In this document: positions 42,325 through 62,983 of the stretch, piece by piece
Numbering within the stretch: position 1 is the stretch's first letter
Layout: every line of letters starts with the position of its first letter
From: Pseudomonas berkeleyensis
Lineage (GTDB): Bacteria; Pseudomonadota; Gammaproteobacteria; Pseudomonadales; Pseudomonadaceae
Direction: 5' to 3'
NCBI RefSeq assembly: GCF_014109765.1
Contig: NZ_CP059139.1
Location: forward strand, 5,167,001-5,231,000
DNA length: 64,000 nucleotides
Position numbers and translations under genes: made by a program
Notes under the pieces: model-generated
Database searches by the model: none
The model's input: the letters and a program-made list of their open reading frames with translations, nothing else
What the model was told of the DNA's origin: nothing

Positions 42325-42328
42325 GGCG

Positions 42329-47136: not shown

Positions 47137-47145
47137 GTTCGATCC

Positions 47146-47901: not shown

Positions 47902-48357
47902 ATGACCACCCCGAGCCTGCACAAGGTTCCCAGCGAACAGGCACCCATGGCGCTGCTGCTGGAAGCCGACCCCAGCCCCGTCACCATCGCCCACTACCTG
48001 CAGGAGGGCCATTGCGTGGTCGCACGCCTGGACTACGCGATCGTCGGCGTCTACGTGATCAAGGCCCTGCACGCCAGCACCTGGGAACTGATGAACATCG
48101 CCGTGGCGCCCGAACACCAGGGTCAGGGCATCGGCGCCCTGCTACTGCATCACGCCATCGACCAGGCCCGACAGCTCGGGGCCAAGCGCCTGGAGCTGGG
48201 CACCGGCAGCTTCGGCCACCAACTGACGTTCTACCAGCGCGCCGGCTTTCGCGTGGTGGCGGTGGAACCGGACTACTTCCTTACCCACTACCCCGAACCG
48301 CTGTTCGAGAATGGCCTGCAACATCGGGATCGTTTGCGCCTGGCGTTGAAGCTATAG
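47902..48357 (+). CDS. GNAT family N-acetyltransferase
   Basis: 151 residues. The acetyl-CoA site is ELMNIAVAPEHQGQGIGALLLHHAI (residues about 68-92; Q/RxxGxG/A loop QGQGIG). Further: LELGTGSFGHQLTFYQRAGFRVV. The acceptor substrate cannot be predicted. It is divergent from lsfA-ssu across the AT-rich control region, so it may share sulfur regulation. Its end overlaps the convergent CHR transporter gene by 6 bp. Confidence 0.88.
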   Translation: MTTPSLHKVPSEQAPMALLLEADPSPVTIAHYLQEGHCVVARLDYAIVGVYVIKALHASTWELMNIAVAPEHQGQGIGALLLHHAIDQARQLGAKRLELGTGSFGHQLTFYQRAGFRVVAVEPDYFLTHYPEPLFENGLQHRDRLRLALKL

Positions 48358-49686
48358 CGCCAAGTGCACCGTCAGGCCGACCAGCGCACAGGCCACCAGC
48401 GTCTCGATCACACCGCGCTTGAAGCCCAGCAACGCCACACCTGCACCGAGGGTGATCAACGCCGACACCCAATCGAACGCCCCGGCGAAGCCCTGCGGCC
48501 AGAGCACGTGATAACCGAAGAACAGCGCCAGGTTGAGGATCACCCCGACCACGGCGGCGGTGATGCCGGTCAGCGGCGCGGTGAACTTCAACTGCCCGTG
48601 GGTCGACTCCACCAGCGGCCCGCCGGCGAGGATGAACAGAAATGACGGCAGGAAGGTGAACCAGGTAACCAGAACCGCTGCCAGCGCGCCACTGGCGAAG
48701 GCCGAATCGCCACCGAACACCGGCTGGCCGTAAGCGCCGACGAACGCGACGAAAGCCACCACCATGATCAACGGCCCCGGTGTGGTCTCGCCGAGTGCCA
48801 GGCCATCGATCATCTGCCGGGGCGTCAGCCAGCCGTAGTGCTCGATGGCGCCCTGGTACACGTAAGGCAGCACCGCGTAGGCACCGCCGAAGGTGAGCAA
48901 CGCCGCCTTGGTGAAGAACCAGCTCATCTGCGTCAACGTACCCTGCCAGCCGAACGCCAGGGTCAGCAGGCCCATGGGTAGCAGCCAGAGCACAGCGCCA
49001 ACCAGCAGGATCAACGCCAGGCGGCTGGAACGGAAATAGGTATGTGCCAGACGCGTCTCGTCATCGATCAGCGCCGGCGCATGCGCCCCGCTCGCCTCGC
49101 CATGTCCGGCGCCGACCGCGAAGTGCTGCGGCGCCAGTCGCCCGCCGATGTACCCCACCAGCGCGGCGCCCAGCACGATCAGCGGGAACGGCAGTTGCAG
49201 CGCGAAAATGGCCACGAATGCCGCCGCCGCGATGACCCACAACCAGGCGTTCTTCAACACTCGCCCGCCGATACGCCAGGCCGCCTGCACCACGATGGCC
49301 GTCACCGCCGGCTTGATGCCATAGAAGATCCCCGCCACCAGCGGCACATCGCCGAACACCAGATAAACCCAGGACAGCGCGATCAGGATCAGCAGCGACG
49401 GCAGCACGAACAGCGCCCCGGCGATCACCCCGCCCCAGGTGCGGTGCATCAGCCAGCCGATATAGGTGGCCAACTGCTGCGCCTCCGGCCCGGGCAGCAA
49501 CATGCAGTAGTTCAGCGCATGCAGAAAGCGCCGCTCGGACAACCAGCGGCGCTTCTCCACCAACTCCTGATGCATGATCGAAATCTGCCCGGCCGGCCCA
49601 CCGAAGCTGATCAACCCCAGCTTCAACCAGAACCAGAAAGCCTGCAGCAAACTGACCGGGGCGGGACGCTCGGGGGACTCGGACAT
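48352..49686 (-). CDS. chrA: Chromate/sulfate-type ion transporter ChrA (CHR family, two-domain)
   Basis: 444 residues with 10-13 membrane helices. Two homologous CHR domains: the first has GLISFGGPAGQISIMHQELVE-like and LPGPEAQQLATYIG motifs, the second ALLTFGGAYAVLPYVYQGA and GLALGETTPGPLIMVVAFVG-like. Such proteins export chromate, and some link to sulfate. Position beside sbp/ssu and another sulfur cluster suggests a role under sulfur limitation, but that is inference. It is followed by a convergent GNAT gene. Confidence 0.9.
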   Translation of the reverse strand: MSESPERPAPVSLLQAFWFWLKLGLISFGGPAGQISIMHQELVEKRRWLSERRFLHALNYCMLLPGPEAQQLATYIGWLMHRTWGGVIAGALFVLPSLLILIALSWVYLVFGDVPLVAGIFYGIKPAVTAIVVQAAWRIGGRVLKNAWLWVIAAAAFVAIFALQLPFPLIVLGAALVGYIGGRLAPQHFAVGAGHGEASGAHAPALIDDETRLAHTYFRSSRLALILLVGAVLWLLPMGLLTLAFGWQGTLTQMSWFFTKAALLTFGGAYAVLPYVYQGAIEHYGWLTPRQMIDGLALGETTPGPLIMVVAFVAFVGAYGQPVFGGDSAFASGALAAVLVTWFTFLPSFLFILAGGPLVESTHGQLKFTAPLTGITAAVVGVILNLALFFGYHVLWPQGFAGAFDWVSALITLGAGVALLGFKRGVIETLVACALVGLTVHLAL

Positions 49687-50274
49687 CGAAGGGCTCCAGC
49701 AACTGAAATCGACCGGCCACTATAGCTGCGAGACGTGACAGCCGCGCGACACCGAACGAAAAATCACCAGCTCCACGCAGCCCTTACCCCACCTGGGCTG
49801 GAAGAGTTTTCCCGCATCTTATCCACAACACTTTCCCCAGATTCTGTGCACGACACCCGTCAGCACGCCCTCGCCCTGCTCCACGGTTGAAAACCCGATC
49901 CAAGTTATTGATTAAAAGTGATATTCCGCCTGGCGATAACGCCAGTGCAACGTCATTGGACAAAAATTGAACGGCCTGCCGAGGCCTGCTTGAATGCTAG
50001 GCGTGAGGCGCTTTTGCAAAGGTTATCCACAGCGCTGTTAACAGAATTTGTGGGTGGGTTCGGGAAGGTCTGGATCGCCATTTCTCCAACGGCAAACGAC
50101 CCACATGGCATTTTGCCCATGAAGCATGGACAGCCTGACGGTGGATGGACTAGGTTCTGGCTTGAAACTGTTGGCGCGGCGAGGTAGCCCCAAGACCTGC
50201 AACCCAAGCTACCTATGTTCATAGCTTTCAACAGTATTTGAAGTGGCCCCAAGCAAGCCTATTTTGAGCTACTC
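49687..50274. other. Non-coding region with two perfect DnaA-box 9-mers
   Basis: 588 bp without a credible gene (an 89-codon plus frame at 49918-50187 looks random). It contains TTATCCACA at 49819-49827 and again at 50023-50031 in the same orientation, and a TGGCGATAACGCCA hairpin at about 49931-49944. The composition shifts towards A+T around 49900-49970, at the left border of the AT-rich patch. It may be a DnaA-binding locus or the edge of an acquired segment. Confidence 0.45.
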
Positions 50275-50712
50275 ATGAAGACCATATTGATACTGAGCGG
50301 ATTTTTGCTCGTGACTGGCTGTATACCGTTTCCAACCTATAAGACTCTTCAGCCAGAAAGCTCGATAACCGTCGTCGATCCGGCAGGAGTTCCTATCGAC
50401 TTTGCAAGTGTCCAGCTGATCAGTAGCTCATATCCCTACGGGTATGAAAAATTCAGAGTCATCACGAAAACCAGTCCCAGTGGCAAAGCAAATTTTACCA
50501 AGATCAAACAATGGCGAATTGAAGCACCTTTGATGATGCACGGCGCAGAGTATTTTTTCTGGAACTGGTGCATCAGCAAAGAAGGTTATAAAACCTTTCA
50601 GACACGCTACACAAGCAGCACCGAATTTGATAACACCTCTTTTGTAACCTTATACCCAGGAAGCTCTAAAGTCTGCCCTGAAGAACACGAATCGTGGCAA
50701 CCTCAGGAATGA
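50275..50712 (+). CDS. Hypothetical lipoprotein in an AT-rich patch
   Basis: 145 residues. Signal peptide MKTILILSGFLLVTGCIPF with lipobox LVTGC (Cys16). The rest is a small beta-rich domain resembling a carboxypeptidase-regulatory or transthyretin-like fold (SITVVDPAGVPIDFASVQLIS, SPSGKANFTKI), with C-terminal cysteines. No family is recognised. It is A+T rich compared with the flanks, suggesting acquisition. It lies 54 bp before the Coq7-like gene. Confidence 0.65.
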   Translation: MKTILILSGFLLVTGCIPFPTYKTLQPESSITVVDPAGVPIDFASVQLISSSYPYGYEKFRVITKTSPSGKANFTKIKQWRIEAPLMMHGAEYFFWNWCISKEGYKTFQTRYTSSTEFDNTSFVTLYPGSSKVCPEEHESWQPQE

Positions 50713-50766
50713 CAGGCTATTTAATCAAGACAAATGCGGTAAAAACACAAGACATACAGGAGCTCT

Positions 50767-51288
50767 ATGTCAATTCAACAGGAAGTCGAACGCATCTTAA
50801 GAGTCAACCATGCAGGAGAGCGAGGCGCCATCAGTATCTATACCTTACAGATCGCTATTTCAAAGCATCTGTGGCCAAGCTGCGTTCCCGCATTGAAAGA
50901 AATGCTGACTCATGAGCAATCTCACTATCTAATATTTGATTCTGCATTGAGAACACGCGGAGCTCGTAGCTGTTACGCATTGTCACTCTGGAGTCTCGGC
51001 GGTGCAACGTTAGGCGCTATAACGGGGTTACTTGGCCCAAAAGCAATCTGGTCATGCACTGCTGCTGTCGAGAGCACGGTCTACAAACATCTTCAAGAAC
51101 AAATCACATTCCTTGAACAACATGACAAGGACGCCTTGCTTGCAGTTCAGGCTATTGAGGCAGATGAGAAGTCCCACCTTCATCACGCTTTGAACAGTGG
51201 AGGCGCTCCAGCAAGAGAAAATAAAATCATTTGGGTTATCGTCTCGTTATGTACGTCCCTCGCCATTTGGCTATCATACCGAATATAG
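50767..51288 (+). CDS. Coq7-like di-iron protein with a C-terminal membrane helix
   Basis: 173 residues. All six expected di-iron ligands of the 5-demethoxyubiquinone hydroxylase family are present: E18 (NHAGE), E50 and H53 (HEQSH), E102 (AVE), E134 and H137 (DEKSH). The order and spacing match Coq7. An added helix at about 153-170 (IIWVIVSLCTSLAIWLS) could anchor it to the membrane. CAGGAG precedes the ATG. Pseudomonas normally has its own coq7 elsewhere; this AT-rich copy looks acquired and may hydroxylate another quinone or have a different role. Confidence 0.8.
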   Translation: MSIQQEVERILRVNHAGERGAISIYTLQIAISKHLWPSCVPALKEMLTHEQSHYLIFDSALRTRGARSCYALSLWSLGGATLGAITGLLGPKAIWSCTAAVESTVYKHLQEQITFLEQHDKDALLAVQAIEADEKSHLHHALNSGGAPARENKIIWVIVSLCTSLAIWLSYRI

Positions 51289-51362
51289 ACTCAGCAAAAA
51301 CAAGTTAGCGAGCTCACCTCACTCACTAACACCTTTACATTCAACTTAAATTAGCCACACCT

Positions 51363-51773
51363 ATGTCATTCGAAGCAAAGCTAATCATTTTCTGGGTACT
51401 TTTATTTACTATCACATGGCTAGTTCATAGACATCCCAATACCAGCTTATCAACGCTAGCAAGCTCTTGGCATGGCCCCATTCCGAGGGAAAACGAACTC
51501 TTAAGCTCTTTTCTACTAAGGCAATCAACTCATGCGTTCAGTTGGGCGCTCCAGACAGCCTTTATCATCACAGGACTTTTCTTGCTGGAACTCTGGTTCC
51601 CTGAGCTAAATCAATCCAACCTTTACATAGCCAGTATTTTCTCAACATTTCTTCTAGGTGGAACCTTCTTACTGGCCACACTGGTTTATTTTTTCCAAGC
51701 CATCAAACAGCGCTGGATTGGCCCAAATCCATTAGTGCTTGAGTCAGAGAATGAAGATCCTGTTGAAAAATAA
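51363..51773 (+). CDS. Hypothetical membrane protein in the AT-rich patch
   Basis: 136 residues with membrane helices at about 5-22, 62-80 and 90-115 (AKLIIFWVLLFTITWLVH; FIITGLFLLELWF; TFLLGGTFLLATLVYFF). Nothing recognised. It shares the AT-rich composition of its two neighbours and may complete a three-gene unit with them. Weak ribosome-binding site. Confidence 0.55.
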   Translation: MSFEAKLIIFWVLLFTITWLVHRHPNTSLSTLASSWHGPIPRENELLSSFLLRQSTHAFSWALQTAFIITGLFLLELWFPELNQSNLYIASIFSTFLLGGTFLLATLVYFFQAIKQRWIGPNPLVLESENEDPVEK

Positions 51774-52398
51774 ACTCACCTCATCAACTCAGCCTACTTG
51801 AAATAGACGCAATACATTTCGAAACGGGGGAAAGGTTTATTTACTATTCTTGCAAATTACAGTGCATAAAAAATTCGGTACGCATGGCGCACCCTACGAT
51901 AAAAACGCCGATACATCAGGCGCGCGAGTAGCCCCTTCAGGAAGGTGAGCGGAATCGTCGTGGAAGAGGTTGAGCGGCATGGATGCCAAAGCCGAGAGCT
52001 GCAATGGCAAGGGCCGCCTAGGCAGGAATGGTTCTTCGTCTGTGGGCCGCATCCGGTCGTGCCTCTGGAACGATGATGGAGCGAACGAACCCCGGCGAAG
52101 CAGGGTGGGCGCGCGTAGGTCGTACTCGCGAAGCAGTACGCCGATGATGTGCTGGACGCAGGTTACGGCCTGGCGGGCTGCTCGCTTCGCGAGCGAGGCC
52201 GCCCTATGTCAGCAAGTGGGCTGGGGGGAGCACCTTCAGCCGAATGAAACTTTCGGTTTCATACCCGCCATAACCTCTGAAGCCTCGCCCTGACAAAGCC
52301 CCCGGATTTCATCCGGGCTACAAAAGCCTGCGCGTGCGGCGCGGGCAAAAAAATCGGGCCTGACGGCCCGAAAAAGTACTCCACCTTGAAGAGTTCGT
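51774..52398. repeat. Gene-free region with three repeat units and a terminator
   Basis: 625 bp. It contains a family-D end (GGTACGCATGGCGCACCCTACG, 51877-51898, given in parts: GGTACGCATG + GCGCACCCTACG), a family-B copy (52115-52208) and a family-A copy CCCGGATTTCATCCGGGCTAC (52301-52321). An 107-codon plus frame at 51970-52293 runs through the repeats and is not credible. A terminator ends the region. Confidence 0.65.
52347..52371 (-). terminator. Rho-independent terminator of the second sulfonate ABC operon
   Basis: CGGGCC (52355-52360) and GGCCCG (52365-52370) with loop TGAC. Read on the minus strand it is followed by ATTTTTTT. It lies about 30 bp after the ATPase stop codon. Confidence 0.88.
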
Positions 52399-53130
52399 TT
52401 ACAGCACGTGCGACTGATAGAGCTCGGTCAGTGCTTCACCGCGCAAGTAGGCCAACTCCGCCGAGCGGCGGTCGCGGGGGCGGGCCAGGGGCACGGCCAG
52501 CTCGCGTTGCAGGCGGCTTGGCGTGCCGCCGAGGATCAGCACGCGGTCGCTTAGATAGAAGGCTTCGTCGAGGTCATGGGTGACCAGCAGCACGGCGATC
52601 TCGTAGCGGGCGGCCAGCTCCACCACCAGATCCTGCAGTTTCATGCGGGTGAAGGCGTCAACCGCGCTGAATGGCTCATCCAGCAACAGCACCTGCGGTT
52701 TGCCGTACAGCGCGCGGGCGATGGCCACACGCTGGGCCTGGCCGCCGGAGAGGTGCTTGGGTAGCGCCTCGCCACGCCCGTGCAAGCCGACGTCGCGGAG
52801 CAATTGTTCCACCCACTGGTCGTCGGCCACCCAGCCATCGGCGAAGCCGACGTTCTGCGCCACGCTAAGCCAGGGCATCAACCGGGGTTCCTGGAACACC
52901 ACACCGATGCCGCTGCCACGCCCGAAGTTGAGCAGCGGGTTGAGTTCCAGCCCGCCCTGGTATTCCTGATCCAGCCCGGCTGCGATGCGCAGCAGGGTGC
53001 TCTTGCCGCAGCCGGAGGGGCCGAGCAGGCTGACCACTTCGCCAGCGGCCAGGCTCAGGCTGACGTCTTCGAGCACACGCACGTCAGCGAAGGCCTTGTG
53101 GATATTCTGCAGTTTCAGCAGCGCACTCAT
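52399..53130 (-). CDS. Nitrate/sulfonate/taurine-type ABC transporter ATPase (second locus)
   Basis: 243 residues from the ATG at 53130, overlapping the permease stop (ATGA); the frame is open further but only as antisense of the permease. Walker A LLGPSGCGKST (about 34-44), FQEPRLMPWLSVAQNV, LSGGQAQR, LLLDEPFSAVDAFTR and THD are intact. The family is that of SsuB, TauB and NrtD. It is the last gene of a minus-strand operon with a porin, an SBP and a permease. Confidence 0.92.
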   Translation of the reverse strand: MSALLKLQNIHKAFADVRVLEDVSLSLAAGEVVSLLGPSGCGKSTLLRIAAGLDQEYQGGLELNPLLNFGRGSGIGVVFQEPRLMPWLSVAQNVGFADGWVADDQWVEQLLRDVGLHGRGEALPKHLSGGQAQRVAIARALYGKPQVLLLDEPFSAVDAFTRMKLQDLVVELAARYEIAVLLVTHDLDEAFYLSDRVLILGGTPSRLQRELAVPLARPRDRRSAELAYLRGEALTELYQSHVL

Positions 53131-53957
53131 GCTCCGTCCTCCCCGCCCTGATAACTGTCGCGCCAGCGCAGGGCGCGGGTTTCCCAGGCCTTGAGCAGGC
53201 TGTCGCTGAGTTTGCCGAGCAGCGCCAGCAGCAGGATGGCGGCGATCACCAGATCCGGCCGCGAGGTTTCCCGGCCATCGCTGAGCAGGTAGCCAAGGCC
53301 ACGGGTGGCGGCGATCAGTTCGGCGGCGACGAGGAACATCCAGCTCAGGCTGAGCGCGCCGCGCAGGCCGGTGAACAGGCTCGGCAGCGCAGCTGGCAGC
53401 AGAATGCGGCGCACCAGCGCCAGCGGCGACAGGCCGTAGAGCCGGCCCACTTCCACCAGTTTGCGGTCGATGTTGCGGATGCCGGCGAGCAGCGCCAGGT
53501 ACACCGGGAAGAAGGCGCCGAGGGCGATCAGCACGATCTTCGGCGTTTCGTCGATACCCAGCCAGAGCAGCAGCAACGGCACCCAGGCCAGGCTGGGAAT
53601 CGCCCGCAGCGCCTGGAAGGTCGGTTCCAGATAGGCTTCGGCGCGGCGGCTGAGGCCCACCCAGGTGCCGATGACGATGGCCAGCGCGGCGCCTATGGCA
53701 AAGCCGGCGCCGACGCGCAGCAAGCTGGCGTTCAGATGCCGCCACAGTTCGCCGCTCTGCGCCAGCAGGTACAGCGTTTGCGCCACCTGGCTCGGCGCAG
53801 GCATCTGGTGCGCGGGCAATACGCCGCTGCGCACCAGGGTTTCCAGCAGAGCCAGAATCAGCAGGGGCACCACCCAACCACGCAGGTCGGTCAGTGCCGG
53901 CCGCCAGCCTGGAAGCCGTTCAGCCCAGCGACCGATGACGAGATTGAGCGCGCCCAT
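53127..53957 (-). CDS. Nitrate/sulfonate/taurine-type ABC transporter permease (second locus)
   Basis: 276 residues with six membrane helices. RAIPSLAWVPLLLLWLGIDETPKIVLIALG and the EAA-type loop VEVGRLYGLSPLALVRRILLPAALPS (split in meaning: conserved Gly and LP) belong to the SsuC/TauC family. The helix AAELIAATRGLGYLLSDGRE is also typical. It starts three bases after the SBP stop. The likely substrate is an organosulfur anion, inferred from neighbours. Confidence 0.92.
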   Translation of the reverse strand: MGALNLVIGRWAERLPGWRPALTDLRGWVVPLLILALLETLVRSGVLPAHQMPAPSQVAQTLYLLAQSGELWRHLNASLLRVGAGFAIGAALAIVIGTWVGLSRRAEAYLEPTFQALRAIPSLAWVPLLLLWLGIDETPKIVLIALGAFFPVYLALLAGIRNIDRKLVEVGRLYGLSPLALVRRILLPAALPSLFTGLRGALSLSWMFLVAAELIAATRGLGYLLSDGRETSRPDLVIAAILLLALLGKLSDSLLKAWETRALRWRDSYQGGEDGA

Positions 53958-53960
53958 CGG

Positions 53961-54953
53961 TCAGTTCCCCACCTTGGCCACGTTGCTGCCGATCACCTGA
54001 GCGGCCAGTTGCGGCTGGATCAGTTGGTCGACCACCTGGGCCACGTCGGTGCCCGGACGCACCAGTTGCTCGTCGAGCAGGATGGGCGCGGCGGCTTTCA
54101 GCGCCTTGATGTGTTCGGCGCCCGGCTGCGGGTTGCTGAAGTCGGTGCGCGACAGTTGCAGCTTGGCCACTTCCAGCGGCAGCTTGGCTTCATCGGCGAG
54201 CAACTGAGCCAGGGCATCAGGGTTGGCGATGGCCCACTGGCGCGCCTGCTCGTAGGCGGCGATCACCTGCTGGATCAGCTCGGGCTGCTCCTTGGCGAAC
54301 TTCTCGGTGACGCTGAGCACGCTGTAGCTGTTGAAGTCGCGGTTGCGGTACAGCAGGCGCGAGCCGGCTTGCAACTCGCTGGCCGCCATCAGCGGGTCGA
54401 GCCCGGCCCAGGCCTGCACGTCACCGCGCTCCAGGGCGACGCGGCCGTCGGGGTGTTGCAGATGGACGATTTCCACGTCGTTCTTGTCCAGCCCCGCCTT
54501 CTGCAGGCTTTGCAGGAGGAACAGGAAGGGGTCGGTGCCCTTGGTGGCGGCGACCTTCTTGCCCTTGAGGTCGGCCAGCGACTGGATGGGCGAGTCCTTG
54601 GGCACCACCAGCGCTGTCCATTCCGGGCGGCTGGCGACGTAGACGGTATTGATCGGTGCGCCGTTGGCGCGGCTGAGCACGGCAGCCAGGCCGGCGGTGG
54701 AGGCGAAATCGGTGCTACCGCCGTTGAGGTATTCCAGCGAGCGGTTGCTGCCCTGGCTGAATACCCATTTGACGGCGATGCCTTGCGGCGCGAGGGCTTT
54801 TTCCAGCAAGCCCTGCTGCTTGAGCACCAGGCTGGTGGGGGCGTAGTAGGCGTAGTCCAGGCGGACTTCTTTCGGTGGTGCGGCATGTACGGCGGCTGGC
54901 AACCAGGCGGCGAACAGCGCCGCCAGGCCAACGCGCAAGGCATTCTTCTTCAT
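53961..54953 (-). CDS. Sulfonate-type ABC substrate-binding protein (second locus)
   Basis: 330 residues. The ATG at 54953 has GAGGAG six bases upstream; the ATG two codons earlier sits directly against that site. The signal peptide ends near HAA-PP (about residue 25). SLVLKQQGLLEKALAPQGI, GSNRSLEYLNGGSTDFAST and ALVVPKDSPIQSLADLKGKK place it in the aliphatic-sulfonate family, but it is clearly more distant from SsuA than the protein at 56947. It precedes its own permease and ATPase genes. Confidence 0.9.
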   Translation of the reverse strand: MKKNALRVGLAALFAAWLPAAVHAAPPKEVRLDYAYYAPTSLVLKQQGLLEKALAPQGIAVKWVFSQGSNRSLEYLNGGSTDFASTAGLAAVLSRANGAPINTVYVASRPEWTALVVPKDSPIQSLADLKGKKVAATKGTDPFLFLLQSLQKAGLDKNDVEIVHLQHPDGRVALERGDVQAWAGLDPLMAASELQAGSRLLYRNRDFNSYSVLSVTEKFAKEQPELIQQVIAAYEQARQWAIANPDALAQLLADEAKLPLEVAKLQLSRTDFSNPQPGAEHIKALKAAAPILLDEQLVRPGTDVAQVVDQLIQPQLAAQVIGSNVAKVGN

Positions 54954-55022
54954 GGTCATCTCCTCGTGGAAGAACAGCCTTCCGGCCCGTTGGCGGGCCG
55001 GTCAGGAGATGGCGAAACGGCG

Positions 55023-56351
55023 TTACAGCAGAGTCAGGGTGTAGCTCAGAATCAGGCGGTTCTCGTCAGTGTCGGTGGTGAAGTTGCCGCGCTGGGTCGC
55101 GTTGCGCCAGGACACGCCCAGACCTTTCAACGGGCCATCCTGCAGGGTGTAGTCGAGGCGGAAATCGCGTTCCCATTCCTTCAGATCACCGTTGGCAGAA
55201 TCGATATTGTCGCCCTTGAGGTAAGCGACGCTGGCCTTCAGGCCCGGTACGCCGAGCTTGGCGAAGTCATAGCCATACTCGGCCAGCCAGGTACGCTCGC
55301 CGGCGTTCTGGAACTTGCCGATCTGGCGGTCGGTGATCAGGTAGGACGAGCTGCCGCCGCCCTGGTTGAGGAACGGGAAGGCGCTGTCGCCTTCGACCTG
55401 CTGGTAGCCCAGGCTGGCGAAGTGGCTGCCCAGGGTGTAGGTGAACAGGGCGCTCCAGGTCTGGTTGTCGACCTCACCGGTGCTGCTGTCGCCGGCACGC
55501 CAGTAACCGGCGCTGCGGTAGCCATCGGCACGGCCGGAGGCGCTGCCGTTCTTGCCGTCGGAGTTGCTGTCGAAGTAACGCAGGTCGGTCTTCAGTGAGC
55601 CCGGGCCGATGGCCCAGTTGTGCACCAGGCCGAGGAAGTGCTGTTTGTAGAAGTCTTCCAGGTTGCCGTAGTAGTACTGCAGCGTCAGATCCTTGGTCAG
55701 CTTGTAGTCACCACCGGCGAAGTAGAACTTGTTGGTGTCGGCGTCACCGGTAGCGCCGGCGATACGCAGAGAGATGTCGTCGGTGGAGCTGCGGGTCTTG
55801 GTGCTTTCCAGTTGGCCGGCGGTCAGGGTCAGGCCGTCGATCTCGTTGGAAGTGATCTGCCCACCTTCGAAGGTCTGTGGCAGCAGGCGGCCGTCGTTGA
55901 AGGTGACCACTGGCAGCTTCGGCAGCAGGGTGCCGATGCGCGCCTCGGTCTTGGACAGGCGCACCTTCGCGGTCACGCCGGCCTTGCTGTAGTCGTCAAC
56001 GGCACTGCCGTCGCTATCGAGCGGGAACAGCTGGCCAGGGGTGCGATCTTGCCCGGCCTTTGCTGGCGTTACGTTACGACCACCAGCATCCAGCTTCACA
56101 CCCAGCAGGCCGATGGCGTCGAGGCCGAAACCGACGGTGCCTTCGGTGAAACCGGAGCTGTAATTGAAGATGAAGCCCTGACCCCACTCCCGCGCCTCAC
56201 CATTGTTGTTGCCGGTGTTCTTGGTGTTCAGGTCGTAATAGAAATTGCGCAGGCCGATGCTGGCCTTGCTGTCTTCAATGAAACCAGCGGCGGTCGCTTC
56301 GGTGGCCAGAGCGGCCAGGGCGACGGCCAGCGCCAGATTGGACTTGTTCAT
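55023..56351 (-). CDS. OprD family porin linked to sulfur uptake
   Basis: 442 residues from the ATG at 56351; a 33-codon extension has no signal features. Signal peptide ends at ATAA-G. The mature start GFIEDSKASIGLRNFYYDLN and blocks EWGQGFIFNYSSGFTEGTVGF and KTEARIGTLLPKLPVV match the paralogue at 25957 closely. It ends LILSYTLTLL, an outer-membrane signature. As first gene of the porin-SBP-permease-ATPase unit it likely gives outer-membrane access for the organosulfur substrate. Confidence 0.92.
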   Translation of the reverse strand: MNKSNLALAVALAALATEATAAGFIEDSKASIGLRNFYYDLNTKNTGNNNGEAREWGQGFIFNYSSGFTEGTVGFGLDAIGLLGVKLDAGGRNVTPAKAGQDRTPGQLFPLDSDGSAVDDYSKAGVTAKVRLSKTEARIGTLLPKLPVVTFNDGRLLPQTFEGGQITSNEIDGLTLTAGQLESTKTRSSTDDISLRIAGATGDADTNKFYFAGGDYKLTKDLTLQYYYGNLEDFYKQHFLGLVHNWAIGPGSLKTDLRYFDSNSDGKNGSASGRADGYRSAGYWRAGDSSTGEVDNQTWSALFTYTLGSHFASLGYQQVEGDSAFPFLNQGGGSSSYLITDRQIGKFQNAGERTWLAEYGYDFAKLGVPGLKASVAYLKGDNIDSANGDLKEWERDFRLDYTLQDGPLKGLGVSWRNATQRGNFTTDTDENRLILSYTLTLL

Positions 56352-56596
56352 GCTCGATGCTCCAGGTGCTGTATGTGCTGTTTTAGGTTTGGCACTGCAC
56401 AGGGGCTCGGCAGGACAGCGGACATGGCGCTGGTCTCGGCGGATTGGCATAAGAGCCCCTGATTCGGGCCCGATGCGGTGGTCCGCTGTCGGCTGGTGGC
56501 TAATCTACGAAATACGCACTAATCCCTAAAAAGAATTATTTTTCACTTTGTAGTAACCAAAAAGAATATAAGTCCGATCCCGGTGCAACTCGGTTC

Positions 56597-56619
56597 GTAG
56601 GAGCGGATTCATCCGCGAA
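56597..56619. repeat. Short palindromic repeat, family C
   Basis: GTAGGAGCGGATTCATCCGC then GAA: a small hairpin (GCGGAT / ATCCGC) of a dispersed family, with further copies at 60293-60339 and 61666-61689. Confidence 0.7.
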
Positions 56620-56680
56620 TCCTGCGAGCCACTCCTGACGGCTTGCTCGGCCAGCCCGAACACGGCCCCCCTGCGGCGTC

Positions 56681-56785
56681 GTAGGGCGTACCGGGACACC
56701 GGCCACTCGGAAGCAGTACACCGTCAGATATGCGCAGTACCACAGAGCGGCGGGCTGCTCGCTGCGCTCGCGAGACCGCCCTACG
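56681..56785. repeat. Dispersed palindromic repeat, family B (diverged copy)
   Basis: GTAGGGCGTACCGG at the left and ACCGCCCTACG at the right, with GAAGCAGTAC and GGCTGCTCGCTGCGCTCGCG inside. It aligns with the copies at 38887-38984 and 52115-52208. Confidence 0.7.
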
Positions 56786-56946
56786 CGCGGTCGATGCCTA
56801 AGCTAATTCCTAAAAATTATTTGTTGGCTATTTTTTAGATCGTCTAGCTTCTCTCCACCGGATCACCGGACTTCTTTCCCCCAACACTGAAGTACGCGTG
56901 ATCCGCCGCACCCCATGGCCGGCACGTGTTCGTATAGAGAGCCGCC

Positions 56947-57906
56947 ATGTCCAAGACCCATTCCAAGCGCAGCACACTGATCGCCGCCTCTCTTGCCATC
57001 GGCCTGCTCGTCGCTCCGTTCACCGAGGCTGCCGAGCAACTGCGCATCGGCTACCAGAAGTCCTCCACGCTGATCAGCCTGCTGAAGAGCCAGGGCACCC
57101 TGGAAAAAGCCCTGGCCAATCAGGACATCACCGTCAGCTGGCACGAATTCCCCAACGGCCAGCCGCTGCTGGAGGCACTCAACGTCGGCAACATCGACCT
57201 GTCCGCCGATGTCGCCGACACCGTGCCGGTGTTCGCCCAGGCCGCCGGCGCCGACCTCGCCTATTTCGCCCAGGAAGCGCCCTCCCCCAGCGCCCAGGCG
57301 ATCATCGTGCGCGAGGATTCGCCGATCAAAGCCCTGGCCGACCTCAAGGGCAAGAAAGTTGCCGTGACCAAGGCAGCCGGCGTGCACTACCTGCTGATCG
57401 CCGCGCTGAACAAGGCTGGCCTGAAGTTCAGCGACATCGAACCCGCCTACCTGACCCCGGCCGACGGCCGCGCCGCCTTCGAAAACCGCAAGGTAGACGC
57501 CTGGGTCACCTGGGAGCCCTTCCTCAGCGGCGCCCAACAACAGTTGCCAACCCGCATCCTTGCCGACGGCAAGGGCCTGGCCGACTACCAGCGTTACTAC
57601 CTGACCAGCGCCACCTTCGCCAAAAGCCACCCGCAAGTGCTGCAGACCGTGTTCGCCGAGCTGGTGAAGACCGGCGACTGGCTGCGCGCCAACCCGCGCC
57701 AGGCCGCTGAAATCCTCGGCCCGCTGTGGGGCAATCTCGACCCGGCCATCGTCGAGAAGGCCAACGCCAAACGCAGCTATCAGGTGCGCCTGGTACAGCC
57801 GGACAGCCTCGCCGAGCAGCAGAAGATCGCCGATGCCTTCTACGGCGCCAGCCTGCTGCCAACCTCGGTGGATGCACGCGAAGTGAGTATCTGGAGCCCG
57901 CAATGA
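56947..57906 (+). CDS. SsuA-like aliphatic sulfonate-binding protein (second of this locus)
   Basis: 319 residues. Signal peptide ends near TEA-AE (about residue 29). QLRIGYQKSSTLISLLKSQGTLEKAL, GQPLLEALNVGNIDLSADV, VREDSPIKALADLKGKKVAV and VDAWVTWEPFLSGAQ closely track SsuA at 45479, far more than the SBP at 53961. It has no permease of its own here, so it may share the divergent ABC permease/ATPase. Its stop overlaps the next start (ATGA), linking uptake to the flavoprotein. Confidence 0.93.
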   Translation: MSKTHSKRSTLIAASLAIGLLVAPFTEAAEQLRIGYQKSSTLISLLKSQGTLEKALANQDITVSWHEFPNGQPLLEALNVGNIDLSADVADTVPVFAQAAGADLAYFAQEAPSPSAQAIIVREDSPIKALADLKGKKVAVTKAAGVHYLLIAALNKAGLKFSDIEPAYLTPADGRAAFENRKVDAWVTWEPFLSGAQQQLPTRILADGKGLADYQRYYLTSATFAKSHPQVLQTVFAELVKTGDWLRANPRQAAEILGPLWGNLDPAIVEKANAKRSYQVRLVQPDSLAEQQKIADAFYGASLLPTSVDAREVSIWSPQ

Positions 57907-59132
57907 GCCTTGAGGCCCGCCTGCATCCCAGCCTGCGCGACGAACCGCTGTTCGCCGCGCACCTGTTCCCCGTGGACTTCGGCAGCCGCACGGCCAAGGT
58001 CGAGCGCCTGGCCAGGCGCCTGGCGGCCAGCGCGGTGGAACGGGACAGGACAGGCGGCAGCCCGCAGGCCGAGCGCGAACTGCTGCGCGACAGCGGCCTG
58101 CTGACCCTGGCCGTGCCGCAGCAGTACGGTGGCCAGGGCGTGGCCTGGCCGGAGATCTACCGCATCACCCGTTACCTGGCGGCGGTGGACAGCTCGCTGG
58201 CCCACCTTTTCGCCTTTCAGCACCTGCAAGTGGCCACCCTCCTGCTGTTCGGCAACCCCGATCAGCAGCGCCACTGGTTGACGCGCACGGTGCAGGAGCG
58301 CTGGTTCTGGGGCAACGCCACCAACGGTCGCGACAACGGCCTGACGCTCGCCCCGCGCGAGGAACATTACGAGCTCAATGGCAGCAAGTCGTTCTGCTCC
58401 GGTGCGCTTGGCGCAGACGCGCTGGTGATCGGCGTGCAGCGCAGCAAGAAGCCGGAAGACCGTGTATTCATCGTCCTGCCCAGCCAACGCGAAGGGCTGG
58501 CGGTGAACAGCGACTGGGATGGTTTCGGCCAACGCCAGACCGACAGCGGCACGGTGCAGTTCGAGCAGGTATTCGTCGACGCCAGCGAGCTGCTCGGCCC
58601 GGTCGGCCCCAGCCCACGCACCACCCTGCGCGCCTGCCTGTCGCAACTGATCCTCACCCAGCTCTACCTGGGTAACGCCCAGGGCGCGCTGGACGCAGCG
58701 CTGCGTTACACCCGCGAACAGAGCCGCGCCTGGCCAGCATCGGGCGTGGCCAATGCCAGCGACGATCCATTCATCCAGCAGCGCTACGGCGAGCTGTGGC
58801 TGCGCTACCGCAGCGCCCTGCCCCTGGCCGAACACGCCGCCCAGCGCCTGCAAACAGCCTGGGAAAAACCGGCACTGACCGCCGCCGAACGCGCCGAAGT
58901 GGCGCTGGCCATCAGCGAGGCCAAGGTGGTGGCGGTGCGCGCCGCCCTCGATATCACCAGCCAGATCTTCGAAACCATGGGCGCCCGCGCCACCAGTTCG
59001 CGCTACGGCTTCGACCGTTTCTGGCGCAACGTGCGCGTGCACAGCCTGCACGATCCCATCGACTACAAGGTGCGCGACCTCGGGCACTGGCTGCTCAGCA
59101 GCCAGGGCCCGCAACCGTCGCTCTACAGCTGA
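57903..59132 (+). CDS. Acyl-CoA dehydrogenase-fold flavoprotein, DszC/SfnB-like
   Basis: 409 residues from the ATG at 57903, overlapping the SBP stop. The N-terminal helical domain has LLRDSGLLTLAVPQQYGGQG and VDSSLAHLFAFQHLQ. The flavin region has WFWGNATNGRD and ELNGSKSFCSGALGADALV, and the C-terminal helical domain has FETMGARATSSRYGFDRFWRNVRVHSLHDP-type residues. The family contains FMNH2-dependent sulfur monooxygenases (DszC) and SfnB-type sulfur-acquisition enzymes. The acyl-CoA dehydrogenase catalytic glutamate is not evident, supporting monooxygenase rather than dehydrogenase activity. Reduced flavin could come from SsuE. Confidence 0.85.
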   Translation: MSLEARLHPSLRDEPLFAAHLFPVDFGSRTAKVERLARRLAASAVERDRTGGSPQAERELLRDSGLLTLAVPQQYGGQGVAWPEIYRITRYLAAVDSSLAHLFAFQHLQVATLLLFGNPDQQRHWLTRTVQERWFWGNATNGRDNGLTLAPREEHYELNGSKSFCSGALGADALVIGVQRSKKPEDRVFIVLPSQREGLAVNSDWDGFGQRQTDSGTVQFEQVFVDASELLGPVGPSPRTTLRACLSQLILTQLYLGNAQGALDAALRYTREQSRAWPASGVANASDDPFIQQRYGELWLRYRSALPLAEHAAQRLQTAWEKPALTAAERAEVALAISEAKVVAVRAALDITSQIFETMGARATSSRYGFDRFWRNVRVHSLHDPIDYKVRDLGHWLLSSQGPQPSLYS

Positions 59133-59235
59133 CAAGGAGGTTAACGCCACAGGAACCATGCAAGGACATCACGACGTTCCACAGCGATGAAGGCGGCTCC
59201 GCCGCACAACTGCCAACTCTCAAGAGGTCGCAACC

Positions 59236-60162
59236 ATGACGATCAAGACCCTTCTCGGTGCCAGCCTGCTGGCCGCCGCCACTCTGCTGCAAACGGTCAC
59301 GGCGCATGCCGCCAGCGAATACCTGGTCAGCACCGACTGGCTGGAAAAGAACCTGAAAGACCCCAAGGTACGCATCATCGAAGTCAGTGTGGTGCCCGGC
59401 GTCTATGAACGCGGGCATATCCCCGGTGCGGTGAATTTCGCCTGGCACAGCGATCTGGTCGACCCGGTACGCCGTGACATCGCCAGCCAGGAGGCCTTCC
59501 AGCAACTGCTGCGCAAGGCCGGGGTGAATGACGACAGCACCACCATTCTCTACGGCGACAACAACAACTGGTTCGCCGCCTGGGGCGCCTGGGTGTTCGA
59601 CGTGTACGGCGTCGATAACGTCAAGCTGCTCGATGGTGGTCGCGCCAAATGGGAGGCCGAAGGCCGCACCCTGGACAGCCGCGCCAGCACGCCGAAAGCC
59701 GGTAACGTAACGGTGCAGGCCGCCAACAAGGATCTGCGCGCCTTCCTCCCGGACGTACTCGCCGCCGCCGAGAAACGCAGCGACGTGCAGTTGGTGGATA
59801 TCCGTTCGCCGGATGAATACAACGGCAAGGTCTTCGCCCCGCAGGGCGTGCAGGAGCTGGCCGTACGTGCCGGCCACGTGCCCGGCGCGGTGAACGTGCC
59901 CTGGGGCCAGGCGGTAGCCGCCGACGGCACCTTCAAATCGGCTGAGGAGCTGAAGAAGGTCTACGGCGCAGTAGGTATCGATGGCAGCAAGCCGATCATC
60001 ACCTACTGCCGCATCGGCGAGCGCTCCAGCCACACCTGGTTCGCCCTGAAGAAAATCCTCGGCTACGACGTGCGCAACTACGACGGCTCCTGGACCGAGT
60101 ACGGCAATGCCGTAGGCGTGCCGGTGGTGAACGTGGCGGGCACCGTCTGGGGCGGCAAGTAA
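59236..60162 (+). CDS. Periplasmic two-domain rhodanese (thiosulfate sulfurtransferase)
   Basis: 308 residues. Signal peptide ends at AHA-AS (about residue 25). Two rhodanese domains: the first (about 28-140) has IIEVSVVPGVYERGHIPGAVN and no catalytic cysteine; the second (about 165-300) has LVDIRSPDEYNGK, RAGHVPGAVNVPW and the active loop CRIGERSS with C258. It should transfer sulfane sulfur in the periplasm, from thiosulfate or a persulfide. It follows the flavoprotein gene by 103 bp and precedes a thiosulfate-type transporter. Confidence 0.92.
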   Translation: MTIKTLLGASLLAAATLLQTVTAHAASEYLVSTDWLEKNLKDPKVRIIEVSVVPGVYERGHIPGAVNFAWHSDLVDPVRRDIASQEAFQQLLRKAGVNDDSTTILYGDNNNWFAAWGAWVFDVYGVDNVKLLDGGRAKWEAEGRTLDSRASTPKAGNVTVQAANKDLRAFLPDVLAAAEKRSDVQLVDIRSPDEYNGKVFAPQGVQELAVRAGHVPGAVNVPWGQAVAADGTFKSAEELKKVYGAVGIDGSKPIITYCRIGERSSHTWFALKKILGYDVRNYDGSWTEYGNAVGVPVVNVAGTVWGGK

Positions 60163-60198
60163 ACCCTCTAAGACTGCCGCCTTGCACGGATGGCTTTT

Positions 60199-60339
60199 GT
60201 AGGGTGTCGCGGGGTTGCCTAGGCCGCGCGCACCAATGACGGCAGCGCTGGCACTGCGGTGCGCACGGCGCACCCTACCTTGAGGCTGTTCTGTAGGAGC
60301 GGATTTATCCGCGAATTTCGCGGCTGAAGCCGCTCCTAC
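60199..60339. repeat. Adjacent family-D and family-C palindromic repeats
   Basis: Family D: GTAGGGTGTCGCGGGGTTGC (60199) to GGTGCGCACGGCGCACCCTAC (to 60278). Family C: GTAGGAGCGGATTTATCCGC (60293) to GGCTGAAGCCGCTCCTAC (to 60339), a complete inverted pair. They occupy the 260-bp gap between the rhodanese and YeeE/YedE genes. Confidence 0.75.
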
Positions 60340-60422
60340 CGAGCAAGCGTCAGTCACGCAAGACACGGCGCTGGCCTGACGCCCAGGGCCGCTTTCGTCA
60401 TCACGGTCGGAAAGGACAACCC

Positions 60423-61607
60423 ATGACCGCCAGTATTTCTTCCAATCGCGCAGCGCTGCCTATCACTTTGGCCGGCCTTCTTGCCCTCGCCCTGCTCACC
60501 TTCATCTGGCAACTTTCCGATGGCAGCAACCAGGGCCGCGCCCTCAGCTATTCGCTGGCCAGCGGCGCCTTGTTCGGCCTGTTGTTACAACGCTCACGCT
60601 TCTGCTTCTTCTGCGTCACCCGCGACTTCGTCGAACGCCGCATACCGGATGGCCTGCTCGGTCTGCTCGCCGCTCTGGCGGTAGGCACCATTGGTTATCA
60701 CACGGTGTTCGGCGCCTTCCTGCCCGATCCCAGCGGTGGGCGCCTGCCACCGGATGCTCATATCGGCCCGCTGAGCTGGGTGTTGGCGCTGGCCGCCACG
60801 GTGTTCGGCCTCGGCATGGCGATCTCCGGCTCGTGCATCAGCGCGCACCTGTATCGCCTCGGCGAAGGCCACTTCGCCTCACTGGCAACGCTGGCCGGTG
60901 CACTGCTCGGTTTCGCTCTCGGTTTTCTCAGCTGGAACCCGCTGTACCTGGCCGCCCTGCAGGAAGCCCCCGTGCTCTGGCTGCCGGGCAAGCTCGGTTA
61001 CGGCGGCTCGCTGCTCTTGCAACTGATCCTGCTTGGCGCGCTTGCCGCCTGGCTGCTGCGTTATCGCCAGGCGGGCACGTCAGTCGAACCCCAGGGACTG
61101 TGGTCGCTGCTGTTTGGCGCGCGTTGGCCGACCTGGGTCGGCGGCGTGCTGATCGGCGGGTTGGCGGTGCTGGCCTATTTCCGCATCGCACCGCTGGGGG
61201 TGACGGCCGAGCTGGGTAGCCTGGCGCGCACCAGCGCCGATAGCCTGGGCTGGCTACCCGAACGCCTGGAAGGACTCGACGGTTTTTCCGGGTGTGCCAC
61301 GGTGGTCAAGGAAACCCTGCTGTCGAACAACGGATTGTTCGTGATTGGCCTGGTGATCGCGGCCTGGGCCAGCGCCCTGGCCGCAGGCGATTTCCGCCCC
61401 AGCGGCGGTGCGCCACGTGACTGGCTACGCGGCCTGCTCGGCGGCGTGCTACTGGGCTGGGGCAGCCTGCTGGCCCTGGGCTGCACCGTGGGTACGTTGT
61501 TGTCCGGGGTGATGGCCGGCGCGGCGTCGGGCTGGTTGTTCGGCCTGTTCTGCCTGGTCGGCACCGTGCTTGGTTTGAAGCTGCGGCCGCTGTTGCGGTT
61601 GGGGTAG
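60423..61607 (+). CDS. YeeE/YedE family (TsuA-like) sulfur-compound transporter
   Basis: 394 residues, about nine to ten membrane helices. Conserved cysteines lie in RSRFCFFC (C61, C64), GMAISGSCIS (C138), GFSGCATV (C291) and ALGCTVGTLLSG (C354). This pattern fits thiosulfate uptake proteins of the TsuA family, where cysteines relay the thiosulfate. Next to a periplasmic rhodanese it probably moves thiosulfate or a related sulfane-sulfur species across the inner membrane. AAAGGA precedes the ATG. Confidence 0.9.
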   Translation: MTASISSNRAALPITLAGLLALALLTFIWQLSDGSNQGRALSYSLASGALFGLLLQRSRFCFFCVTRDFVERRIPDGLLGLLAALAVGTIGYHTVFGAFLPDPSGGRLPPDAHIGPLSWVLALAATVFGLGMAISGSCISAHLYRLGEGHFASLATLAGALLGFALGFLSWNPLYLAALQEAPVLWLPGKLGYGGSLLLQLILLGALAAWLLRYRQAGTSVEPQGLWSLLFGARWPTWVGGVLIGGLAVLAYFRIAPLGVTAELGSLARTSADSLGWLPERLEGLDGFSGCATVVKETLLSNNGLFVIGLVIAAWASALAAGDFRPSGGAPRDWLRGLLGGVLLGWGSLLALGCTVGTLLSGVMAGAASGWLFGLFCLVGTVLGLKLRPLLRLG

Positions 61608-61625
61608 TCAGGATCATCACCCGGC

Positions 61626-61689
61626 GCGGTGCGCACGGCGCACCCTACGGAACAAGGCAGGTTCCGTAGGAGCGGCTTCAGCCGCGAAA
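61626..61689. repeat. Family-D and family-C repeat units
   Basis: GGTGCGCACGGCGCACCCTAC (61628-61648) followed by GTAGGAGCGGCTTCAGCCGC (61666 on). It lies between the convergent YeeE/YedE and MFS genes and is a shortened version of 60199-60339. Confidence 0.7.
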
Positions 61690-61741
61690 CCTGACACCCG
61701 CGTTAGTGACCAAACCACTCCTGCCCCGGTGCCTACTCTCG

Positions 61742-62983
61742 CTAGCCCACCTTGCTCGGCGAAGCATCCTCGAAGCGGTCGACCTTGCGCAGGCTCTTGA
61801 AGCCGAGCATCCAGCCGCCGGTCACTAGCAGCGTACAGGCGCAACCCAGCAACGCCGCCGGCACCACGCCGAACCAGGCGGCGCTGGTGCCGGCGCGGAA
61901 TTCGCCCAGCTCGTTGGAGGAACCGATGAACAGCATGTTCACTGCGTTGACCCGGCCACGCATGGCGTCCGGCGTGGAGAATTGCACCAAGGATGAGCGG
62001 ATGTACATGCTCACCATATCCGCGCCGCCCGCCACCATCAGTGCAGCGAACGACAGCCAGAACAGGCTGGACAAGGCGAACACCAGGTTGGCCACACCAA
62101 ACAGCGCCACCGCGCCGAACATCACCAGGCCGACATGGCGGTTGAACGGTTTCATGCTCAGGTACAGGCCAACGGACACCTCGCCGATAGCCATGGCGCT
62201 GCGCAACAGGCCGAGGCCCGTCGGCCCGACTTCCAGCACTTCCTGGGCGTAGATCGGCAGCAGCGCCACTACGCCGCCGAGCAGCACGGCGAACAGATCC
62301 AGTGAGATGGTGCCCAGGATGATCGGACGCGAACGAATGAAGCTGATCCCGGCGGTAAAACGTGCCCAAGCGGTGGACTCCAGCGCCTGCATTTTCTCGG
62401 CGTAGTGCACCGGCACCAGCGGCAACAGCGCGGCACCAGCGAGAAAGCCAACCAGGCAGGCCGAGTAGGTCAGCCCACCACCACCGATGGCATACAGGCC
62501 GCCACCGATCACCGGCCCGGAAATGGTCGCACCACGCATGATCATGCTGTTGGCGGCAATCGCCGCAGCCAGGCGCTCGCGCGGCACGATCTGCGGTAGC
62601 AGGCTCGACAGCGCCGGTCCGGTGAAGGCCCGTGCACTGCCGTAAAGAACCAGCACGCCGTAGTACCAGGTCACTGGTGCCTCGCTCTGCGACAGCCACA
62701 GCAAGGCCCCGGCACAGACAGCCTCCACCAGCCAGCTGAGCATCAGGATCAGCTTGCGGTCGAAGCGGTCGATCAAGTCGCCGGCCGGCATCAGCAGCAC
62801 CAGCATCGGGATGAACTGGGCCAGGCCGACATAGGCCAGCGACAGCGGATCGCGGGTGATGTCGTAGACCTGCCAGGCGACGACGATGGCCTGGATCTGC
62901 ATGGCGAACACCGCCATCAGGCGTGCAGCAAGGAACGGCAGGAAACCGGGAAGACGGTAGACGGAGACAGGGGCAGCGGACAC
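61742..62983 (-). CDS. MFS transporter (MFS_3/EntS-like exporter)
   Basis: 413 residues with 12 predicted helices. The loop motif DLIDRFDRKLILMLSWL (G-x-L-x-D-R-x-x-R-K type) follows helix 2. AIAANSMIMRGATISGPVIGGGLYAIGGG and SSLVQFSTPDAMRGRVNAVN are typical of MFS_3 exporters such as EntS. The substrate is unknown. It is convergent with the YeeE/YedE gene, so not obviously part of the sulfur unit. No clear ribosome-binding site decides the start. Confidence 0.88.
   Translation of the reverse strand: MSAAPVSVYRLPGFLPFLAARLMAVFAMQIQAIVVAWQVYDITRDPLSLAYVGLAQFIPMLVLLMPAGDLIDRFDRKLILMLSWLVEAVCAGALLWLSQSEAPVTWYYGVLVLYGSARAFTGPALSSLLPQIVPRERLAAAIAANSMIMRGATISGPVIGGGLYAIGGGGLTYSACLVGFLAGAALLPLVPVHYAEKMQALESTAWARFTAGISFIRSRPIILGTISLDLFAVLLGGVVALLPIYAQEVLEVGPTGLGLLRSAMAIGEVSVGLYLSMKPFNRHVGLVMFGAVALFGVANLVFALSSLFWLSFAALMVAGGADMVSMYIRSSLVQFSTPDAMRGRVNAVNMLFIGSSNELGEFRAGTSAAWFGVVPAALLGCACTLLVTGGWMLGFKSLRKVDRFEDASPSKVG

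Follow-up and report, generated by a model that had tools for sequence, protein, structure and literature searches.

What purpose, if any, joins the eight genes that lie side by side at positions 52399–61607 of a 64,000-nucleotide stretch of Pseudomonas berkeleyensis DNA (contig NZ_CP059139.1, positions 5,167,001 to 5,231,000 of the forward strand; this whole stretch is the window below)? They encode an OprD-family porin, two periplasmic substrate-binding proteins (SBP1 and SBP2), the permease and ATPase of an ATP-binding cassette (ABC) importer, a flavin monooxygenase, a two-domain rhodanese and a YeeE/YedE-family transporter. All eight open reading frames are confirmed at the places given in the original prediction, which was made from the sequence alone, and each is supported by a Pfam or NCBIfam family model. 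Searches of open-licence papers turned up no described pathway with this gene set, and passages of one paper that came up there (PMC9878933) hold nothing relevant. The locus is a composite of two putative sulfur-scavenging modules: module A, made up of the porin, both SBPs, the importer and the monooxygenase, and module B, a separable two-gene unit of rhodanese and YeeE.

The reading favored here, which we hold to be probable though well short of assured, is that module A imports and oxidizes organosulfur compounds and that module B is a rhodanese-fed importer of sulfane sulfur, both in the service of sulfur scavenging; the substrates, the direction of transport, the hand-over of sulfur and regulation by sulfur limitation are the parts of it that we infer. 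In module A, OprD would let an organosulfur anion through the outer membrane, the two SsuA-like binding proteins would capture it, and the single ABC transporter would import it for cytoplasmic oxidation, with reduced flavin, by the monooxygenase of the DszC/MsuC branch. Conversion of a sulfinate to a sulfonate would be the likeliest reaction, the product then going to SsuD, which is encoded ~12.5 kb upstream. In module B, the secreted rhodanese would act in the periplasm on thiosulfate or a similar donor, remove its sulfane sulfur and pass this to the five-cysteine YeeE, which would relay it to the cytoplasm, where cysteine and methionine are made.

The rhodanese–YeeE module

The pairing of the rhodanese (59236–60162, plus strand) with YeeE (60423–61607, plus strand) was followed through the best 80 of 437 matches from a scan of GTDB species genomes with a YeeE alignment, all at 51% identity or more, among which the nearest named relatives belong to Pseudomonas composti, P. 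toyotomiensis, P. chengduensis and P. guguanensis. In 77 of these 80 loci the gene immediately upstream of YeeE, on the same strand, encodes a rhodanese, and the three loci without one are cut by contig ends that leave at most 601 bp of upstream sequence. Of 75 loci, with start codons picked by script, 7 have overlapping frames for the two genes, and a simple hydropathy test finds a signal-like N-terminus in 70 of the 71 rhodaneses with an assignable start; that of the window rhodanese was judged signal-like by eye. The pair is tightly kept across very different bacteria, freshwater plankton included. Among the distant YeeE paralogues of the genus (25 of 34 distant matches served as a control), none of the 25 has such a rhodanese within 1.5 kb, two of them (L022 and L032) being cut upstream; with 27–33% identity and no rhodanese partner, the distant YeeE proteins of other Pseudomonas genomes were rejected as members of the same system. 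The P. berkeleyensis genome holds no second YeeE at an E value of 0.001, and its two other rhodanese matches are each 32% identical.

The window rhodanese (PF00581, 124 bits over two stretches) has the two rhodanese domains and the catalytic cysteine loop of a thiosulfate sulfurtransferase, and its best solved relatives, 3hwi and 3aax, are enzymes of that kind. Its CRIGERS loop, aligned to theirs, is intact and identical (CRIGERSSHTWF), so that translation and alignment uphold an earlier claim of an intact loop in a protein with a signal-like N-terminus. That N-terminus and the partnership with YeeE set it apart from 3hwi and 3aax, which we take to be cytoplasmic and of the mycobacterial CysA type. 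The 3-mercaptopyruvate sulfurtransferase model PRK11493 gives the window rhodanese 153.1 bits, below its cut-off of 250.

YeeE (Sulf_transp, PF04143, 179.3 bits, cut-off 27) is predicted to adopt the fold of TsuA and of solved YeeE, and the relay cysteines of TsuA, C22, C91 and C293, align to its C61, C138 and C354. Five cysteines had been called conserved, and all five (C61, C64, C138, C291 and C354) are the same in every one of 80 aligned rows, which comprise 79 loci and the window, L116 being excluded because of a stop; 60 of 77 also have a sixth, C377. The original prediction called the transporter TsuA-like, which is apt for its fold and three of its cysteines but not for its family, since the NCBIfam TsuA models score 71.6 bits of a required 400 and 58.5 of 645. 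Relative to TsuA, the protein shows 24% identity and two extra invariant cysteines (five vs. three). Where TsuA–TsuB (YeeE–YeeD) employs a cytoplasmic TusA-like partner, module B has a secreted rhodanese.

These differences bear on a rival account of module B, in which YeeE, like TsuA, takes up whole thiosulfate and the rhodanese has a side role, such as the handling of periplasmic cyanide or sulfite. Such an account draws on the shared fold and the three aligned cysteines, and on the transport of thiosulfate in vitro by Spirochaeta thermophila YeeE alone, as given in the transport passages of one report (PMC11073785). However, it sits poorly with the near-constant rhodanese partner and the two extra invariant cysteines, as well as with TsuA scores far under the cut-offs; nor was any TsuB/YeeD-like neighbor seen by eye among 19 CPxP-bearing small frames (M or V start) within 1.5 kb of YeeE in the 80 loci and the window. 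We regard plain thiosulfate import as a credible but less than likely account.

The putative organosulfur module

The monooxygenase of module A (57903–59132, plus strand) matches a family model of the acyl-CoA-dehydrogenase fold, and its nearest solved structure is MsuC (6u76, 346 bits), followed by DszC (4doy, 332 bits). In a site table for which we assumed the numbering and roles of the DszC sites, it keeps His92, Asn129, Phe161, Ser163, Trp205, His388 and His391 of DszC; the core site residues of the solved flavin monooxygenases of the DszC/MsuC branch are present. Position 96 is Phe as in MsuC rather than the Tyr of DszC, and position 388 is His as in DszC rather than the Gln of MsuC, a combination that distinguishes it from both, as does its position among genes for a porin, two SBPs and an ABC importer. 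A tree of 30 sequences places it among 14 rows that form a clade (92/99), itself nested in a wider clade of 20 rows (87/92), apart from MsuC, DszC/TdsC and SfnB. MsuC 6u76 groups outside this clade, at 100/100, with a protein of the P. berkeleyensis genome itself (L002, 715 bits to 6u76). DszC groups with TdsC, also outside it, on long branches that leave the exact branching order open. The possibility that the window enzyme is a plain MsuC was therefore rejected: it lies outside the MsuC clade, and the genome encodes its own MsuC separately. Of the earlier description as DszC/SfnB-like, the placement in the DszC/MsuC branch survives, while the SfnB part does not, the SfnB model TIGR04022 giving 284.6 bits against a cut-off of 430.9; the SfnB pair of the same genome scores 601.6 and 547.5. 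The DszC model NF043015 is likewise missed, at 364.6 of 850.

The transport genes of module A form two divergent units. The porin (55023–56351, start taken as ATG 56351; PF03573, 482.4 bits, cut-off 25), SBP1 (53961–54959), the SsuC-like permease of the BPD type (53127–53957; PF00528, 107.8 bits) and the SsuB/TauB-like ATPase (PF00005, 114.7 bits) are on the minus strand, the extent of the ATPase gene being corrected from that given earlier to 52399–53130, with its start at ATG 53130. SBP2 (56947–57906) lies on the plus strand directly before the monooxygenase. An ATGA overlap had been reported to couple SBP2 with the monooxygenase; it is real (CCCGCAATGAGCC) and was found again in 8 of 16 related loci compared, and a further ATGA overlap couples the permease stop with the ATPase start. 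Both SBPs pass the SsuA-family model TIGR01728 (259.3 bits for SBP1 and 211.8 for SBP2, cut-off 163.5). The ATPase and permease resemble SsuB and SsuC, the remaining parts of the SsuABC aliphatic sulfonate importer, but fail the equivalog cut-offs (199.6 of 395 for PRK11247, the best NCBIfam match of the ATPase; 222.5 of 347 for PRK11365). Unlike SsuABC, module A has two SBPs in divergent units, an OprD porin, and no SsuD in the unit.

The divergent halves of module A are co-conserved, as comparison of neighborhoods, the check proposed with the original prediction, makes plain. Eight genus genomes were read in detail, namely that of P. berkeleyensis, L039, L040 and L072–L076, these being the eight with a monooxygenase orthologue among 119. 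OprD and SBP2–monooxygenase occur together in all eight, and SBP1–permease–ATPase in seven, being absent from the stretch of G063. SBP1 is merely 51–52% identical in L072, L075 and L076, so its ligand may differ there. Two side observations concern relatives of this arrangement. An LsfA-like peroxiredoxin, named by eye, stands between SBP1 and SBP2 in L099, L100 and L110, at the position that the porin holds elsewhere; and in L072 (5647–10851) module A adjoins two SfnB-type monooxygenases, placed by the tree, and an LLM-like monooxygenase, named by eye, in a larger organosulfur cluster.

The two SBPs, being of an anion-binding family, favor a sulfinate as the substrate of module A. A rival reading gives module A a neutral organic substrate instead, a sulfide, sulfoxide or sulfone of the kind that DszC, TdsC and the Dms enzymes oxidize; the clade, after all, keeps the His388 of DszC where MsuC has Gln. 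The Dms enzymes belong to the group D monooxygenases, which share the fold of the window enzyme. In Acinetobacter baylyi, according to one report, the group D monooxygenases Dms1–3 oxidize dimethyl sulfide (DMS) and dimethyl sulfoxide (DMSO), and MsuC is slow on methanesulfinate and shows low-level oxidation of DMSO (PMC13352529). A neutral substrate nonetheless fits ill with two SsuA-family binding proteins and an ABC importer, which suit an anion, and Phe96 is common to the clade and MsuC. A neutral substrate is thus a genuine, if unlikely, possibility.

Linkage of the two modules

Are the two modules parts of one pathway? Across 398 genus genomes, orthologues at 71% identity or more were found in 26 for the monooxygenase and in 14 for YeeE. 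Both occur in 13 genomes, within 1.5 kb of each other in 10 and apart in 3, which leaves YeeE alone in 1 and the monooxygenase alone in 13. The hypergeometric probability of this co-occurrence, 1.7e-16, ignores kinship and so overstates the association. A tree built from 40 of the 81 YeeE rows, selected by us, needs 5 changes of the label "beside A", where shuffled labels need 13.7, and two deep branches carry the label; one row scored as lacking A (L108) is cut by a contig end, so that the true count may be 4. This pattern indicates that the A–B linkage is old or recurrent, and neither module needs the other. A single join inherited without loss is not supported, given the five changes. In two loci, L094 (7783–9763) and L118 (7868–9769), an SBP2-like protein stands directly before rhodanese–YeeE with no monooxygenase.

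A number of observations weigh against the favored reading, most of them through the looseness of this linkage. Module B lies beside the monooxygenase in 10 of the 26 genus genomes having the latter and elsewhere in the genome in 3, so that 16 of the 26 have no module B in cis. Even among the eight closest genomes (93–95% monooxygenase identity), two (G298 and G377) have no YeeE, and in the eight read in detail rhodanese–YeeE adjoins module A in 3 and lies elsewhere in 2 (G054 and G013), while no orthologous YeeE was found in 3. Seen from the other side, 61 of the 80 module-B loci have no monooxygenase beside them, although 11 of the 61 have less than 1.5 kb upstream and cannot tell. With YeeE absent or apart in so many monooxygenase genomes, a pathway shared by A and B is not required. 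The original prediction of a sulfur-acquisition cluster accordingly holds in part: the locus looks like one, and its rhodanese and YeeE suggest that thiosulfate or sulfane sulfur is involved, but its genes do not make one fixed pathway. Forty-five of the 61 loci not beside A have none of 11 tested families within 6 kb; the other 16 have at least one, which in 2 cases is merely a sigma-54-type regulator. On the chemistry, the monooxygenase might, like DszC, take neutral sulfides, and the A. baylyi report, where it discusses MsuC, doubts that sulfinate is the main substrate of that enzyme (PMC13352529). Finally, the best NCBIfam match of the window YeeE is selen_YedE_FdhT, sub-threshold at 92 bits (cut-off 350), yet above TsuA.

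An ambitious extension of the favored reading, and one that we hold to be quite doubtful, makes rhodanese–YeeE the mirror image of TsuA–TsuB. The periplasmic partner would load a cysteine on that face, C291, sulfur would pass via C354, C138 and C61, and C64 would replace the TsuB cysteine, here missing, at the exit. The pair would serve organisms ranging from Pseudomonas to SAR11 of fresh water as a supply of inorganic sulfur with no need for sulfate reduction; together with module A, Pseudomonas would split thiosulfonates and use both sulfur atoms. Attractive but distinctly improbable is the related idea that A and B form a single thiosulfonate (R-SO2-S−) pathway, in which the rhodanese would strip the sulfane sulfur for YeeE and the leftover sulfinate would be turned by module A into sulfonate for SsuD. 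Rhodaneses use thiosulfonates, and such a pathway would explain the linkage in two deep branches of Pseudomonas and allied gammaproteobacteria, the co-occurrence (13 of 14 YeeE genomes), and the SBP2-like protein that alone adjoins module B in L094 and L118. However, 13 of the 26 monooxygenase genomes have no YeeE, most module-B loci have no A, and the linkage is explicable by shared regulation.

Genomic context of module B

If module B does not depend on module A, what does it serve elsewhere? In four of the 80 loci the gene order is rhodanese–YeeE–CysK–MetX, with MetY nearby on the other strand. Two of them, L142 (876–5875) and L151 (965–7006), are named Candidatus Fonsibacter, of the LD12 branch of SAR11, and the other two, L138 and L150, are unclassified alphaproteobacteria with the same gene order. 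In L151, CysK scores 494.8 bits (cut-off 387), MetX 510.3 (331) and MetY 579.4 (495). Three of the four loci have an OsmC-like frame in between, which in L151 is under cut-off (33.8 of 95). The succession of the pair by CysK and MetX in Fonsibacter suggests a role for module B in sulfur assimilation; a CysK/MetX-type neighbor as a general rule was rejected, at merely 4 of 80 loci. In six further loci (L091, L109, L112, L117, L121 and L129) a gene for CysB or for a binding protein of the sulfate type lies no more than 0.5 kb away, and the Pelagibacteraceae loci L147 and L156 end just after YeeE.

Sulfate reduction was looked for, as 3′-phosphoadenosine-5′-phosphosulfate (PAPS) reductase, in the six genomes of the Fonsibacter-type and Pelagibacteraceae loci (L138, L142, L147, L150, L151 and L156), which are small and partly incomplete. 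Five give weak matches of 20.6–25.9 bits in frames of 522–524 residues, likely another enzyme, four of which exceed the loose family cut-off of 22.5, and the sixth, L147, has an 85-bit match in a 130-residue frame. Through the rhodanese–YeeE–CysK–MetX loci, freshwater SAR11, in which sulfate reduction is missing, may draw on inorganic sulfur. If the favored reading is true, it becomes testable how LD12/SAR11 bacteria without sulfate reduction get their sulfur; the paper on the first LD12 isolate notes a sulfurtransferase and partial sulfide-assimilation pathways, its passages on these mentioning no adjacent transporter (PMC6018831). Module B would likewise constitute a second architecture for the import of reduced inorganic sulfur, with a periplasmic rather than a cytoplasmic enzyme driving the transfer, and module A would give a substrate class to a clade that lies near MsuC and DszC and is uncharacterised; within this group, physiological substrates are in doubt even for MsuC, to judge from the passages on that enzyme (PMC13352529).

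The assimilatory context also bears on the proposal that module B is a SoxT-type importer working in dissimilatory sulfur oxidation. In Hyphomicrobium, as the passages on these genes have it, SoxT1A is a YeeE-like importer beside the cytoplasmic rhodanese Rhd442, and SoxT1A/SoxT1B share with module B a YeeE-like sulfur import with sulfur-transfer partners (PMC11582611). Of 51 module-B genomes, 9 have strong SoxZ matches (at least 82 bits) and 6 more have weak SoxZ-like ones alone, P. berkeleyensis with its single 40-bit match among them. With 42 of the 51 genomes, some of them incomplete, having no strong SoxZ, Sox oxidation is not the common denominator of module B. No Sox family was found among the nine window proteins scanned at the locus. 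In contrast to SoxT1A/SoxT1B, module B has no recognised adjacent Sox genes, and assimilation genes adjoin it in some relatives, the Fonsibacter-type loci joining it to CysK–MetX; a SoxT-type role is very improbable. Least plausible of all is that YeeE carries selenium, for although selen_YedE_FdhT is its best NCBIfam model and matches 60 of 60 members scanned, the window scores lie far under cut-off (92 of 350; 47.8 of 200), the partner is a relative of thiosulfate sulfurtransferases, and sulfur genes occur in several neighborhoods.

In L041 (3001–5073) and L042 (2544–4706, minus strand), where module B lies apart from A, a TonB-receptor-like gene, recognized by eye, follows YeeE, and perhaps replaces the porin.

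The divergent control region and repeats

Are the halves of module A controlled together? The region between the porin and SBP2 (56352–56946) is 595 bp long in the window, as first described, but this length is not conserved, ranging from 368 to 763 bp in 18 relatives, and a repetitive extragenic palindromic (REP)-like repeat lies inside it. Conserved blocks are seen in an alignment of the 19 module-A control regions, those of the window and the 18 relatives. Two direct copies of CTAATNCCTAAAAA stand one near each divergent unit, both on the plus strand and exact: CTAATCCCTAAAAA at 56519–56532 on the porin side and CTAATTCCTAAAAA at 56803–56816 on the SBP2 side. They are the sole two exact matches in the 5.65-Mb genome; one mismatch admits two more (L163 and L164), with no sulfur gene recognised beside them by eye, and the reversed pattern has no genome match. 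At up to three mismatches, a loose limit at which one copy each in L072 and L040 stands, all 19 control regions have at least one match and 18 at least two, L074 having one. The copies are 74–88 bp apart in ten relatives, farther in others, and 284 bp apart in the window, where the REP-like element lies between them. A two-copy element at a divergent control region supports joint control of the two halves. An early AT-rich pattern, with one genome match, was replaced by this shorter element.

A sigma-54 (−24/−12) promoter in the control region was rejected, as a loose pattern for it matched none of the 19 regions. Neither a sigma-70 scan (0 found, 1.0 expected) nor a terminator scan (9 found vs. 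7.1 expected) is informative. A sigma-54-type regulator, presumably SfnR-like, adjoins module A or B in several relatives (L073, 8171–9106; just after YeeE in L087–L090, L099 and L110), the one scanned falling below every NCBIfam cut-off; the window, whose end is 2.4 kb beyond YeeE, shows none. REP-like copies lie at 56598, 60294, 60318 and 61667 of the window and a second kind of repeat, GTAGGGTGCGCC at 60258, also at 51877 and 61628. The two kinds fill spaces of the locus, including the control region and the rhodanese–YeeE gap (60163–60422), which holds both.

Surroundings of the locus

The same window carries, by eye from translations, sulfate-type uptake genes and SsuA–SsuD, which make the locus part of a larger sulfur block. 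At 38980–46459, a sulfate/thiosulfate-type binding protein and two CysT/CysW-like permeases stand beside SsuB, SsuC, SsuD and SsuA; no CysA-like ATPase was seen by eye adjoining these permeases. An Rfam scan over 43000–62500 returned one miRNA match below threshold, which we put down to chance. Another OprD-like porin, similar to that of module A, was recognized by eye at 25957–27291 on the minus strand. Just upstream of the locus, at 50001–52000, an AT-rich patch (GC 0.46 vs. ~0.64 around it) with small genes, among them a COQ7-like frame noted by eye, has perhaps been acquired.

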